Part shown: positions 42,290 through 46,867 of the stretch, one piece after another
Layout of the letters: each line of letters begins with the position of its first letter
Numbering within the stretch: the first letter of the stretch is position 1
Source: Flavobacteriia bacterium
GTDB taxonomy: Bacteria; Bacteroidota; Bacteroidia; Flavobacteriales_D; Crocinitomicaceae
Length of the DNA: 64,000 bases
Assembly (NCBI GenBank): GCA_947446925.1
Contig: CANFHU010000001.1
Span: forward strand, 62,001 to 126,000
Reading direction: 5' to 3'
The notes under the pieces: model-generated
Database searches by the model: none
Seen by the model: only the letters and a program-made list of their open reading frames with translations
What the model was told of the DNA's origin: nothing
Position numbers and translations under genes: made by a program

Positions 42290-42808
42290 ATGAATACACG
42301 TGTTGAAGCAGCATTAAACGATCAGGTAACTAAAGAAAGTTTTTCCTCCCAATTTTATTTGGCAATGGCTTCTTGGGCAGAAAACCAAGGTTTAAATGGC
42401 ACTGCAAAGTTTTTGTATTTACACTCCGATGAAGAGCGTTTTCATATGTTAAAATTGATTAAATTCATCAATGAACGCGGTGGAAAAGCAATTATTCCTT
42501 CCGTGGAAAAACCACCGGTAGAATTTGAAAATATCATCCATATATTCGAATTGCTATTAAAACACGAATTAATGGTAACGGAAAGCATCAATAATTTAGT
42601 GGATGTTTGTTTACAAGAAAAAGATTACACTACACACAATTTTGTGCAATGGTATGTTTCTGAACAATTAGAAGAGGAAGCCATGGCACGTTCATTAGTA
42701 GATAAATTAAAATTAATCGGTGGTGATTCAGGAGGAATCTACATTTTTGATCGCGACTTAGAGAAATTTATACCTGCAACGAATGGGGCAGAAATTAGCG
42801 CAAATTAA
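42290..42808 (+). CDS. ftnA: Ferritin
   Basis: A 172-residue non-haem ferritin of FtnA type. Ferroxidase-site residues lie in FYLAMASWAENQGLNGTAK, HSDEERFHMLKLIKFINERG and NFVQWYVSEQLEEE. It stores iron, which fits the feo iron-uptake genes further on. A TAACTTTG box is 22 bases before the ATG. Confidence 0.93.
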   Translation: MNTRVEAALNDQVTKESFSSQFYLAMASWAENQGLNGTAKFLYLHSDEERFHMLKLIKFINERGGKAIIPSVEKPPVEFENIIHIFELLLKHELMVTESINNLVDVCLQEKDYTTHNFVQWYVSEQLEEEAMARSLVDKLKLIGGDSGGIYIFDRDLEKFIPATNGAEISAN

Positions 42809-42814
42809 TGAAAC

Positions 42815-42854
42815 AAACCTGTAGATATACATTACATTGTGTGTCTACAGGTTT
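42815..42854 (+). terminator. Hairpin after ferritin
   Basis: Arms AAACCTGTAGA and TCTACAGGTTT, extendable with G-T pairs to about 17 bp around a 7-base loop. No long T run follows, so it may act as an mRNA-stabilising hairpin as much as a terminator. Confidence 0.6.
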
Positions 42855-42937: not shown

Positions 42938-45900
42938 ATGCGGTTATTCTTTGTTTTTCTATTCCTTTTTCTAACAACATTATCCTTTTCCCAAAATGCG
43001 TATCGTTTTAGAAACTATACGATTAGTGATGGATTATCACAGTCCGCAATTAGTACCTTAATTCAAGATAATATAGGTTCCATTTGGATTGGAACACAAG
43101 ATGGTCTAAATCGTTTTGATGGACAAACTTTCGAAACATTCAATCCTGACAATTCAGATGGGATAGAAAATGGGGATTTTTTAAGTGCGATTAAATCCAC
43201 TAACGGAATGCTCTGGTTTGGTACCTCGAATGGATTAACGCAATACGACCCAAATACCGAGAATTTTAAAACTTATCTTGCACCTAATCTAGAAGTACTT
43301 CAAGCAAAATCCATTATTGAAGATAAAAACGGAAATATTTGGATTGGTAGTTACAATGCCGGTATTTTATTTTTTGATGCAAAAACGAAAAAAATCACTA
43401 AAGTAAAACAAGCAAAACTTCCAACCGAAAAAATTCTATACATCACGTTAATTTCACCAGAAGAATTATTAATTAGTACAGAAGATAAAGGGATTTTTAT
43501 CTATTATATACCGCAACAAAAAAGTTATCCGCTTGTAGCCAAAGCAAAAACAGACAAACAATTTAAAGCATATTCCGTTAAAGCATTTGACCATAATGAA
43601 TGGATTATCTGCTCTAACCAAGGACTTTATTTTCTAAATGTTCGAACAAAAAAAATTAGACCTTGTTTTCGTAAATTAGATAATTTGTATGGCTGGTTGG
43701 AAATACATGACATCTTAATACTGAACGAACATAAGTTCATAATCACTTCAAAATCAGATGGTTTATTTACTTTGGAACATGCAAAATTCAATAGCCAAGT
43801 AAACATTTATCAATCTTCTCAAGATATTTTTCAAAAACACGCCTTATTATATAACGCGACCAATGTATTGATGCGTGATAAAAATGGTACGTATTGGGTA
43901 GGAACTGAACGTGGACTTTGTAGTTTTGACCCACTCAATCAAGGTTTTTTAGGAAACGGTCCAAGCCAAGATTTAACACGTGGTATTCCATCAGCAAGTG
44001 TGTGGAGTTTTACGGAAGAACCAAGTAACCGTTTCTTTTATGTTGGATCCGACAACTCTGTATCCCGATATGACAATCGTACCGGTAAATTTACACAGTA
44101 CTTTCGAGAATTCAATTTCAATAAAAAAATCAATAATTCTAGTTTCTTAAGTATGTATGCATTTGATGCAAACAACATACTATTAGGTGCTAGCGATGGA
44201 TTAAGTATATTAAAAATTAATTCTGAAACATCGTATTCTTTTACTAAAATTCCATACAAAGGAATTCAAAACCCTGCTGATTTTGAACGTATTTACCAAA
44301 TAAAAAAATACAAGGAGGGTCAATATTTTTTAGCGACAAAAGGTGGTGTTTTATTATATAATCAAAATAAAGGAACCTTTAAAGTATTTGAACATGACGA
44401 AGAAAACCCAAACAAAACAATTGGTGGTGGGGTTTGTAAATTAATTTTTAAAGACGTAAATGACGACTTTTGGTTTACTGCTGGTACAGGTGGTTTATTT
44501 AAATTAACAGAAAACACAGAGGGAGAGTTATTCATCAAACCTTATAAATACAACAATCTGATAGCAAATATTTCCAAAGAATATATTGCATCCATTTACC
44601 AAGAGGATGAAAATACCATTTGGTTAGGAACGATGGGTGCAGGTATGATAAAATGGAACTTAAAGACAAAAAAAGGTAAATTATATAACAAGAAAAATGG
44701 CCTTCCAAATAACGTAATCTACGCTATCTTAAATGAAAACAACAGTAATAATATTTGGCTAAGTACGAATAAAGGTATTTCTAAGTTTAATACAAAAACA
44801 GAGGCTGTCCTAAACTTCACGGAGCAAGATGGATTAATGTCGAATGAGTTTAATCAAGGAGCATATTTTAAGTCCAAAACAGGAATGTTATACTTTGGAG
44901 GTATTTATGGGTATAACTTTTTTGACCCACACAATCTTTCCACCAAAGAAAAGATGGTAGACGTTTTCTTTACAAAAATCAAATTAGAGGAACATTGGTT
45001 AAAACCACATGAAAGTAAAGGTTTATTGAAGAAGGCCATTCCATACATGAAACATATCTATTTGACGTACAAAAAACGAAGCGTTACGTTAAAATTTATG
45101 GCAACAGAATTAAGTAATCCTAATCTAATATCTTATAAATATATACTAGAAGGATCGGAAGAAGGATCGGAAGAAGTGTTTTTAGGAAATACGAATCAAT
45201 TACACTTAAATTCGATACAACCTGGTGAATACAACTTAAAAGTGTATGCGAAATTTGCGAATGGACCTTGGAGTGAACGACCAGCAACCTTGTCAATTAC
45301 TGTAGAAACCCCTTATTGGAAAACAGTTTGGTTTTGGATTGGAATAGCCATGGTAATTGCTTTACTAACCATTTTCTATTTCCGTAAAAAAATTGAATAC
45401 GAGCGCAGACAACAAGTGAAATTAGAAATGAAAATCGCAGAACGTACACGCGAGATTCGAGAACAAAATGTAAAAATAGAGAAACAAAAAGAAATGATCG
45501 AGGAAAAGAAAAACAACCTCGAAGAACAAAAGAAATTACTAGAAATTGAGAAAGAAAAAACAGAAAAAGTATTAAAAAATATTCTACCAGTCTCGACATA
45601 TGAAGAAATAAAAGCAACAGGAAGAGCAAGTGCACGTGCATACAGTCGTGTATCGGTGTTGTTTACCGATTTTGTTGGATTTACTAAAATTGCAGAGACC
45701 ATGACGCCTTCTCAATTGGTAAGTGAATTGGATATCTATTTCCGTAAATTCGATGAAATCATTGTACGTAACAACTTAGAGAAAATTAAAACAATTGGGG
45801 ATGCGTATATGTGTGCAGGAGGAGTACCTGTACGAAACAAAACCAACCCTGTGGATGCATGCTTAGCAGCGTTACAAATCCAAGACACCATGCAACAAAT

Positions 45901-46867
45901 GCGCGATAAAGCGATTGCAGAAGGTGGTCAAGTTTGGAACTTACGTCTAGGAATCAATACTGGAGAGGTAACCGCTGGTGTGATAGGAACGGAAAAACTA
46001 GCATACGATATTTGGGGGTCTACGGTGAATCAAGCGCAACGTATGGAAATGTTAGGAGAGCCTGGAAAAGTAAATATTTCCGGACAAACTTTTAAATACA
46101 TAGAGCCCTATTTCATTTGTACCTTCCGTGGAAAAGCAAAAACAAAAAGTCAGGGTTTAATTGATATGTATACCGTAGAAGGTATCAAACCGGAACTTTC
46201 CATCGATGGGAAAGGTCTATACCCGAATGAGCGTTTTCATCAAATACTCAACTTGCACCAATACAGTAGTATCAATTACTACAAAGCAGAACACCATATT
46301 ATGAAAGTATTAGAGGAGCAACTTTCCCCAAAATTACACTACCATAGTATTACACACACAGTAGATGTGGTGAAATCCATCGAACGTATTGCTTTATTAG
46401 AAGGTGTTACCGATGAAGGTCTGTTCTTGCTTAAGTCCGCTGCTTCCTACCACGATGCTGGATTTATTGAGTCGTATGACAACAACGAACCAAATGGTGC
46501 ACGGTTGGCAGAAGAAATTTTACCGAATTATGGATATTCCAAAGAACACATTGCAATTATCAAAGAATTAATTTACGTAACTGCTATTCCGCACAAACCA
46601 AAAAATCATTTAGAAGAAATTATTTGTGATGCAGATTTAGATTATTTGGGTAGAGAAGATTTCCATGAAATAGCCGATAAATTGCGTGTAGAACTTCGTG
46701 AAAATGGAAAAATAAATAGCGATCGCAAGTGGGATGAAATACAAGTGTCCTTCTTAACAAACCATCGTTATTTTACACAAACTGCCATTAATACGCGTAA
46801 TGAAGGGAAGGCAAAGCATTTAGAAGAAATCAAAGAACGTTTGCTTAAAAATAATTACGCAGATTAA
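42938..46867 (+). CDS. Sensor adenylate cyclase fused to an HD-domain hydrolase
   Basis: A 1309-residue membrane protein. Order: signal peptide (LFFVFLFLFLTTLSFSQ), about 650 residues of two-component-regulator propeller repeats (NIGSIWIGTQDGLNRFDGQT and similar), a Y_Y_Y domain, a membrane helix near 794-815 (VWFWIGIAMVIALLTIFYF), a coiled coil, a class III cyclase domain and a C-terminal HD domain. Cyclase residues are complete: metal Asp in LFTDFVGFT (about 909) and IGDAYM (about 955), adenine-type Lys in EKIKTIGD and Asp in YDIWG, and VNQAQRME. The HD domain has HSITH and SYHDAGF (HD at about 1172), then CDADLDYLG. It may sense a periplasmic ligand, make cAMP and hydrolyse a nucleotide or phosphoester. 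Confidence 0.88.
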   Translation: MRLFFVFLFLFLTTLSFSQNAYRFRNYTISDGLSQSAISTLIQDNIGSIWIGTQDGLNRFDGQTFETFNPDNSDGIENGDFLSAIKSTNGMLWFGTSNGLTQYDPNTENFKTYLAPNLEVLQAKSIIEDKNGNIWIGSYNAGILFFDAKTKKITKVKQAKLPTEKILYITLISPEELLISTEDKGIFIYYIPQQKSYPLVAKAKTDKQFKAYSVKAFDHNEWIICSNQGLYFLNVRTKKIRPCFRKLDNLYGWLEIHDILILNEHKFIITSKSDGLFTLEHAKFNSQVNIYQSSQDIFQKHALLYNATNVLMRDKNGTYWVGTERGLCSFDPLNQGFLGNGPSQDLTRGIPSASVWSFTEEPSNRFFYVGSDNSVSRYDNRTGKFTQYFREFNFNKKINNSSFLSMYAFDANNILLGASDGLSILKINSETSYSFTKIPYKGIQNPADFERIYQIKKYKEGQYFLATKGGVLLYNQNKGTFKVFEHDEENPNKTIGGGVCKLIFKDVNDDFWFTAGTGGLFKLTENTEGELFIKPYKYNNLIANISKEYIASIYQEDENTIWLGTMGAGMIKWNLKTKKGKLYNKKNGLPNNVIYAILNENNSNNIWLSTNKGISKFNTKTEAVLNFTEQDGLMSNEFNQGAYFKSKTGMLYFGGIYGYNFFDPHNLSTKEKMVDVFFTKIKLEEHWLKPHESKGLLKKAIPYMKHIYLTYKKRSVTLKFMATELSNPNLISYKYILEGSEEGSEEVFLGNTNQLHLNSIQPGEYNLKVYAKFANGPWSERPATLSITVETPYWKTVWFWIGIAMVIALLTIFYFRKKIEYERRQQVKLEMKIAERTREIREQNVKIEKQKEMIEEKKNNLEEQKKLLEIEKEKTEKVLKNILPVSTYEEIKATGRASARAYSRVSVLFTDFVGFTKIAETMTPSQLVSELDIYFRKFDEIIVRNNLEKIKTIGDAYMCAGGVPVRNKTNPVDACLAALQIQDTMQQMRDKAIAEGGQVWNLRLGINTGEVTAGVIGTEKLAYDIWGSTVNQAQRMEMLGEPGKVNISGQTFKYIEPYFICTFRGKAKTKSQGLIDMYTVEGIKPELSIDGKGLYPNERFHQILNLHQYSSINYYKAEHHIMKVLEEQLSPKLHYHSITHTVDVVKSIERIALLEGVTDEGLFLLKSAASYHDAGFIESYDNNEPNGARLAEEILPNYGYSKEHIAIIKELIYVTAIPHKPKNHLEEIICDADLDYLGREDFHEIADKLRVELRENGKINSDRKWDEIQVSFLTNHRYFTQTAINTRNEGKAKHLEEIKERLLKNNYAD

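Follow-up and report, generated by a model that had tools for sequence, protein, structure and literature searches.

The window analysed here is a stretch of 64,000 nucleotides from a Flavobacteriia bacterium of the Crocinitomicaceae (contig CANFHU010000001.1, positions 62,001 to 126,000), and it carries on its forward strand a gene for a protein in which a periplasmic sensor is joined to a class III adenylate cyclase (AC) and a C-terminal HD domain. From the sequence, we consider it probable (about 0.6) that this protein is a bifunctional synthase and phosphodiesterase (PDE) of cyclic AMP (cAMP), working as a sensor-driven two-enzyme cAMP switch. The basis of this reading is that metal ligands are kept at both catalytic sites, that the pair of enzymes is conserved across the sampled family, and that one HD clade is tied to cyclases of adenylate type in further families of the phylum. 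The open reading frame is intact, from an ATG at 42938 to a stop codon ending at 46867, and encodes 1309 residues with the following parts.

42938..46867, + strand: whole gene of the sensor-cyclase-HD protein, 1309 residues (open reading frame, Pfam, homologues)
42938..42994, + strand: signal peptide, residues 1-19 (by eye)
42998..45037, + strand: periplasmic propeller, residues ~21-700 (PF07494 Reg_prop, four stretches; outer limits by eye)
45113..45304, + strand: Y_Y_Y domain, residues 726-789 (PF07495, E 1.4e-8)
45326..45394, + strand: single transmembrane helix, residues ~797-819 (by eye)
45404..45577, + strand: long signalling helix or coiled coil, residues 823-880 (AlphaFold2 model, single helix over 816-882)
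45632..46180, + strand: class III adenylate cyclase domain, residues 899-1081 (PF00211, E 2.7e-44; catalytic residues)
46181..46267, + strand: linker between cyclase and HD domain, residues 1082-1110 (conservation 0.75 across the family rows defined below)
46268..46864, + strand: HD domain resembling class I cyclic-nucleotide PDEs, residues 1111-1309, with H1136, H1140, H1172, D1173, D1231/D1233, Q1269 and F1272 (homologues, AlphaFold2 model, fold matches)

An earlier note on this DNA had proposed a propeller/Y_Y_Y sensor followed by a coiled coil, a cyclase and an HD domain, and this layout is right. Pfam identifies Reg_prop (four stretches, E 1.8e-18), Y_Y_Y and Guanylate_cyc in the window protein, the AlphaFold2 model contains the helix, and the HD domain is recognized through homologues. 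The model of the cyclase-HD half has a mean predicted local distance difference test (pLDDT) score of 88.4 and a predicted template modelling score of 0.57.

In the proposed mechanism, a periplasmic ligand would bind the propeller/Y_Y_Y part, and the signal, passing through the transmembrane helix and the coiled coil, would set the state of the cyclase dimer, as the architecture of class III cyclases suggests. The HD domain would act as a metal-dependent phosphodiesterase with a class I PDE-like fold and would hydrolyse cAMP. Rel/SpoT and GGDEF-EAL proteins keep paired opposing activities under reciprocal control, and by analogy the conserved linker would render the two activities of the window protein reciprocal.

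Relatives of the protein were collected by a scan of named genomes, which gave 129 confirmed relatives, and the best 80 loci were kept; these 80 and the window make up the 81 family rows. Over their aligned parts, the kept relatives share 42-93% identity with the query. The cyclase domain belongs to class III (IIIa), as the Guanylate_cyc model (PF00211) matches residues 899-1081 with 151.4 bits against a cut-off of 21.9 (E 2.7e-44), and its best solved relatives are the mammalian adenylate cyclases. K951, D955, D1024 and N1031 are identical in 81/81 family rows, D911 is kept in 80/80 with one gap, and R1035 is kept in 78/81, the other three rows having Gln. We take D911 and D955 to be the metal-binding Asp residues, K951/D1024 the adenine pair and N1031/R1035 the transition-state residues, following the roles known for class III cyclases. 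The PF00211 match and the invariant K951/D1024 bear out the earlier description of an intact class III cyclase with adenine-specific residues. PycC was considered as an identity for this domain and rejected: PADLOC models of PycC match it (best E 7.4e-12), but these matches are not diagnostic, as the same models match an adenine-pair cyclase carrying a receiver (REC) domain at E 8.9e-24.

The HD part of the window protein was left unnamed by Pfam, NCBIfam and PADLOC. No PF01966 match was found at E <= 1 with the whole protein or at E <= 10 with the C-terminal 229 residues, in which the sole Pfam match is HD-CE (E 0.014, below its cut-off), and a phmmer search of the PDB with the single HD domain gave nothing at E <= 1. 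We note that a relative 63% identical to the window protein (L002/L116) passes PF01966 with 23.5 bits against a cut-off of 22, so that the miss on the window protein reflects the sensitivity of the model; PF01966 matches 30 of the 36 members of our alignment A2 of HD domains at E <= 0.01. For the HD domain, AlphaFold2 predicts an HD/PDE-like fold at a mean pLDDT of 92.8. Seven ligand-type residues, H1136, H1140, H1172, D1173, E1184, D1231 and D1233, are invariant in all 81 family rows, the window included, and are kept in 115 of 116 other HD frames. With its H...HD...D ligands and helical fold, the domain is a member of the HD superfamily, and the claim that all its metal ligands are present holds throughout the family. 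Q1269 and F1272 are kept in 80/80 readable family rows. In one relative (L104), similarity is lost at query residue 1265 although the frame continues, perhaps through a frameshift or an assembly error in the HD end.

Structural comparison of the HD model with VIA-align places eukaryotic class I PDEs first, with PDE10A (4dff) at Z 17.9 over 195 of 219 residues (rmsd, root-mean-square deviation, 3.1), PDE7A (1zkl) at Z 17.4 and PDE5 (6l6e) at Z 16.8; the bacterial HD protein 2pq7 reaches Z 16.8 with 164 residues aligned. The modelled domain is thus similar to class I cyclic-nucleotide PDEs over its whole fold, at an identity of ~15-19% in the structural alignments. A full-length relaxed alignment to PDE4D, of low probability, brings YHxxxH, HD, ADL and QxxF into register, and only in this alignment do Q1269 and F1272 pair with the QxxF of PDE4D; we presume that these residues could be counterparts of the purine-clamp Gln and Phe of class I PDEs. 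The PDEase_I model (PF00233) has no match on the window protein or elsewhere in its genome. It weakly matches 3/36 members of A2 (best E 0.00027) and is weakly matched in 7 of the 395 genomes sampled across the phylum, in 5 of these 7 inside members of this HD family, with one match over the cut-off. These comparisons with a modelled structure make the likeness to PDEs a lead, not proof.

The cyclase-HD half is found in nearly every sampled genome of the window's family, with matches in 146/150 of them and in 113/114 of those of good quality. Cultured named members of this family include Fluviicola and Taishania, from which we take it to be the Crocinitomicaceae; many records of metagenome-assembled genomes bear other names. 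On average, the share of rows that agree with the query at a position is 0.77 for the cyclase, 0.75 for the linker, 0.76 for the HD domain and 0.47 for the propeller. Most relatives (74/80) align from query residue 65 or earlier, a contig end truncates five, and L101 has no propeller. Among the matches listed, 11 loci that are 62-67% identical have short open frames (524-553 residues), and the five of these short-frame loci that were read (L116 and L151-L154) start near the transmembrane helix and contain coiled coil, cyclase and HD domain with no propeller. L101 is the same gene as L153, with the ferritin gene described below still upstream. In addition, a paralogue of 561-573 residues, read at eight loci, consists of a receiver domain, cyclase and HD domain, and PF00072, PF00211 and PF01966 are all above cut-off in the three REC-cyclase-HD paralogues scanned. 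Because of this paralogue and the sensor-less copies, the cyclase-HD pair is, by its sequence record, a conserved and portable output unit, whose sensor can be lost or replaced. The homologues that the earlier note called for therefore change its frame. Its architecture stands, but a frame centred on one sensor protein is too narrow, as the sensor is dispensable or replaceable, what is conserved is the cyclase-HD pair, and 127 of the 395 genomes sampled across the phylum have an HD relative at E <= 1e-5. One relative, L067 (CP034120.1), comes from a record titled Glaciecola amylolytica and is a typical locus of this family; a genome of the window's family, G489, matches at the same coordinates, and the title of CP034120.1 is probably wrong.

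To describe the HD family across the phylum, we read 116 distinct HD frames from 118 loci, chosen among the best HD matches listed together with the paralogues and hence not a random draw. They comprise 51 stand-alone domains, 47 PycTM-like fusions, 10 cyclase fusions (9 of them in the window's family), 4 YitT fusions and 4 other long frames. Pfam confirmed the PycTM partner (PF18967) in the four frames scanned and the YitT partner in two. One cyclase fusion, L132, is a kinase-AAA-GAF-cyclase-HD protein according to Pfam. HD domains fused to YitT-like membrane proteins occur in L006, L016, L215 and L233 (Pfam-checked in L006 and L016), and all four have Gln at the position of Q1269. Two further long frames, L133 6102-8741 and L134 5375-7963 (880 and 863 residues), combine tetratricopeptide repeats with an HD domain and have a TIR-like N-terminus, seen by eye in L133; a TIR identity was not retained for L133, as Pfam gave no TIR match at E <= 0.001.

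Outside the family, this HD domain is often encoded on its own close to a class III cyclase. Among 44 HD matches in 30 genomes, drawn from those with the best HD matches, 14/28 non-PycTM HDs have a class III cyclase no more than 5 kb away (0.17 expected; three of these are fusions), as do 1/16 PycTM-type HDs (0.13 expected), where the PycTM tags were assigned mostly by open reading frame length and the expected values disregard contig ends. With a limit of 11 kb, which was chosen after seeing the data, the count for non-PycTM HDs is 19/28 against 0.36 expected. A recurring gene set outside the family contains a histidine kinase, a receiver, a REC-cyclase, YitT and HD. In L122 (2190-6651) the kinase, receiver and REC-cyclase are Pfam-confirmed, and parts of the set were recognized by reading in L118, L124, L127, L129 and L135. 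By its gene content, this set looks like a two-component-to-cAMP module with a YitT membrane protein. At L119, the HD gene is preceded by two cyclases, the nearer of which stops 37 bp before the HD frame.

A quick unrooted tree of 124 HD sequences (the window, 7 family members and 116 others) contains one group of 40 (SH-like approximate likelihood ratio test, SH-aLRT, 99), in which 33 are fused to, or accompanied in the fetched stretch by, a cyclase or YitT. Of the 51 rows in which PycTM is fused or adjacent, 50 fall among the remaining 84. A careful tree of 36 sequences, also unrooted, has a matching split of 29 versus 7 with support 100/99. In this tree, L132 is placed outside the 12-row fused clade of the family, which suggests that the cyclase-HD fusion arose more than once. 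The residue at position 1269 is Gln in 40/40 members of the first group and in 1/84 of the remainder (L191); the 47 PycTM fusions have N in 33, S in 5, T in 4, D in 2 and G, E and Q in one each. We read 27 cyclases, and those at loci with Q-type HDs carry Lys + Asp/Thr, presumably the adenine pair, in 23/23 cases. Cyclases beside N-type HD-PycTM genes carry Gln + His in 3/3, all from one family (f18). There are exceptions: an N-type HD stands beside a cyclase scored Lys + Asp (L229), a PycTM fusion carries Gln (L191), and 8 of 41 Q-type rows have neither cyclase nor YitT in the fetched stretch. Q1269 and gene context are associated over the 124 rows with a Fisher p of 3e-18, for which the tree needs just 2 changes and gives at most 2 independent pairs. 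The three loci with the Gln/His pair in place of Lys/Asp (L027, L157 and L206), in which HD-PycTM genes adjoin class III cyclases, are a possible Pycsar variant.

We put forward one broader proposal tentatively, as we think it less probable than its converse. The HD family would be a large, undescribed bacterial family of cyclic-mononucleotide phosphodiesterases with a fold related to that of eukaryotic class I PDEs, and it would supply class III cyclase signalling in Bacteroidota with a built-in off switch. Base choice would be tuned at one position, with Gln accompanying adenylate-type cyclases and mostly Asn, Thr or Ser in the PycTM fusions, whose substrate might be a Pycsar-type pyrimidine or another cyclic nucleotide; the latter fusions would be effectors with their own signal-clearing domain.

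Several observations weigh against cAMP hydrolysis by the window's HD domain, and one of them is our main doubt. Position 1183 is Asn in 81/81 family rows and in 8/8 REC-cyclase-HD paralogues read, whereas it is His in 107/107 HD frames outside the family. With Asn in place of an otherwise fixed His, turnover by the HD domain may be lost or altered, and the domain may bind cAMP rather than cut it. The likeness to PDEs is also uneven. A profile search of the PDB finds 2pq7 at E 4.3e-8 and YedJ at 2.3e-6, with PDEs only at E 0.087 and up; the hhalign comparison with PDE4D is weak (E 0.0024, probability 12%, 29 columns); and in Foldseek the bacterial HD proteins 2pq7, YpgQ and 2pjq lead, with PDE4D just behind. 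PDEs crowd the fold list partly since they are so numerous in the PDB, and the fold rankings come from the window's HD model alone, the one HD protein modelled. The association of Q1269 is that of one clade and not of repeated evolution in the sequences compared, and it has no independent replication because Q changes just twice on the tree. Finally, the Arg that we take as the canonical cAMP contact of the CRP family was found by eye in 0 of the 3 CRP-family proteins of the genome.

These observations bear on the alternatives to different degrees. A serious one, though rather unlikely in our judgement, is that the metal site of the HD domain takes up cAMP (or AMP) as a ligand and the domain thereby regulates the cyclase, perhaps by feedback inhibition, without meaningful hydrolysis. 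The fixed Asn fits this alternative, as do a linker about as conserved as both enzymes and the PycTM fusions, in which the HD domain may sit where a ligand-sensing input could be expected; but the full and nearly universal set of ligand-type residues is typical of enzymes, and L132, the fusion outside the family's clade, retains His at position 1183. It is unlikely that the domain hydrolyses another nucleotide, as a pyrophosphohydrolase, a nucleotidase or an enzyme for a 2',3'-cyclic or alarmone substrate, and provides a second output or a housekeeping function. 2pq7 and YedJ are the nearest solved sequences, YpgQ ranks high by fold, and YpgQ-like HD proteins are broad in substrate according to the available part of one report (PMC8431786); Ppx-GppA_III, a domain of pppGpp/polyphosphate enzymes, also weakly matches 2/36 A2 members (best E 5.5e-5). 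The strong linkage and fusions to class III cyclases, the motifs resembling those of PDEs and the match to class I PDEs over the whole domain speak against such a substrate, and the 7 Pfam families that A2 members match at E <= 0.01 include no SpoT-type HD model. That the domain is merely structural, a leftover of an old fusion, we regard as very improbable: nothing except N1183 favours it, and the HD domain matches the cyclase in conservation, 83 columns reaching >= 97% in the family rows. Synthesis and breakdown of a cyclic nucleotide by one polypeptide, as the earlier note had suggested, is the best-supported reading given the class I PDE-like fold, the linkage of the HD domain to adenylate-type cyclases and the invariant Q1269. 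We infer it from sequence, and the note had missed the caveat of N1183.

The gene upstream and a hairpin in the intergenic region are listed here.

42290..42808, + strand: ferritin gene, frequent upstream neighbour (PF00210, E 1.3e-40)
42815..42854, + strand: hairpin of 17 bp between the ferritin and cyclase-HD genes (inverted repeat; minimum free energy -24.7 kcal/mol, z -7.0 versus shuffles)

A check of partner genes, also proposed in the earlier note, identified ferritin as the frequent neighbour, with a match in 62/80 family loci (2 of these on the other side and strand); the downstream genes rplU and serS are present in just 5/80. At 12 of the 80 loci, including that of the closest relative (L031), sequence is available upstream and ferritin is missing from it; 6 others are cut by a contig end. 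The gap to a same-strand ferritin gene, measured at 56 loci, has a median of 33.5 bp and is at most 67 bp in 48 of them; it is 129 bp in the window. This frequent close pairing suggests that iron storage and cAMP may be co-regulated. The hairpin is not followed by a long U tract and is absent from the list of the terminator scan, and it is possibly a partial terminator or a processing site, judging from its sequence. The genome has one other class III cyclase match, L112 (contig C27, 7346-7864), in a 414-residue frame whose N-terminal part has no identification. Neither class II PDE (PF02112; CpdA-type metallophosphatases were not searched for) nor PF18967 had a match in the genome.

In a 2005 census, the four genomes of Bacteroidetes covered were without adenylate cyclases, according to the part of the text available (PMC1183210). 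In the literature searched, we found no description of a cAMP-degrading enzyme of Bacteroidota, and in the open-access literature none of this fusion or HD family, which is no proof of novelty. If the readings above are true, the phylum gains a phosphodiesterase family, one bacterial family has a near-universal sensor-to-cAMP protein whose gene often stands beside one for ferritin, and adenylate-type signalling is connected to Pycsar-type effectors by a single-residue rule that can be tested. The window protein would also be a bacterial counterpart of plant CAPE (COMBINED AC with PDE).

Known systems share parts of this architecture. Reg_prop and Y_Y_Y domains are sensors of histidine kinases, and the window protein has the same periplasmic propeller, Y_Y_Y domain and transmembrane helix, but its output is cyclase-HD and not a kinase. 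With class I PDEs (PDE4, PDE7 and PDE10; PF00233), its HD domain has in common an HD-superfamily fold over 195 residues and the order HxxxH, HD, ADL and possibly QxxF; the window's HD is a smaller domain and is undetected by PF00233. YpgQ/YedJ-type HD proteins likewise have a small HD domain, and they are the best matches in the PDB by sequence (YedJ, 2pq7) and by Foldseek (2pq7, YpgQ). One of them, the YpgQ-like BDPDE1 of Brachypodium, hydrolyses cAMP; unlike the window protein, these proteins are not mentioned as cyclase fusions in the available part of that report (PMC8431786).

Pycsar systems consist of PycC, a pyrimidine cyclase, and a PycTM or PycTIR effector, as outlined in the accessible part of PMC11224242. 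They are connected to the window's HD through the 47 of 116 related frames that carry a PycTM-like domain. The window protein itself has no PycTM and a cyclase with the adenine pair, and we do not regard it as a Pycsar system, since PF18967 is also absent from its genome; PycTIR was not searched for. CAPE, of Marchantia and other streptophytes, is the closest proven example; it likewise has a class III cyclase and a cyclic-nucleotide PDE (here predicted) in one polypeptide that is probably membrane-bound. For recombinant MpCAPE of Marchantia, the available part of the report describes both AC and PDE activities, and PDE activity was abolished by changing either of two His residues four residues apart (PMC5159850), a spacing that H1136 and H1140 of the window protein appear to share. 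The window protein is not a member of the CAPE group, as its HD domain is not PF00233 and lies on the opposite side of the cyclase. CAPE, in the portion of the report available, is eukaryotic, with an N-terminal class I PDE and two predicted transmembrane helices between the enzymes, whereas the window protein is bacterial, with the cyclase first, an HD domain of ~200 residues, no PDEase_I match and a periplasmic propeller sensor.

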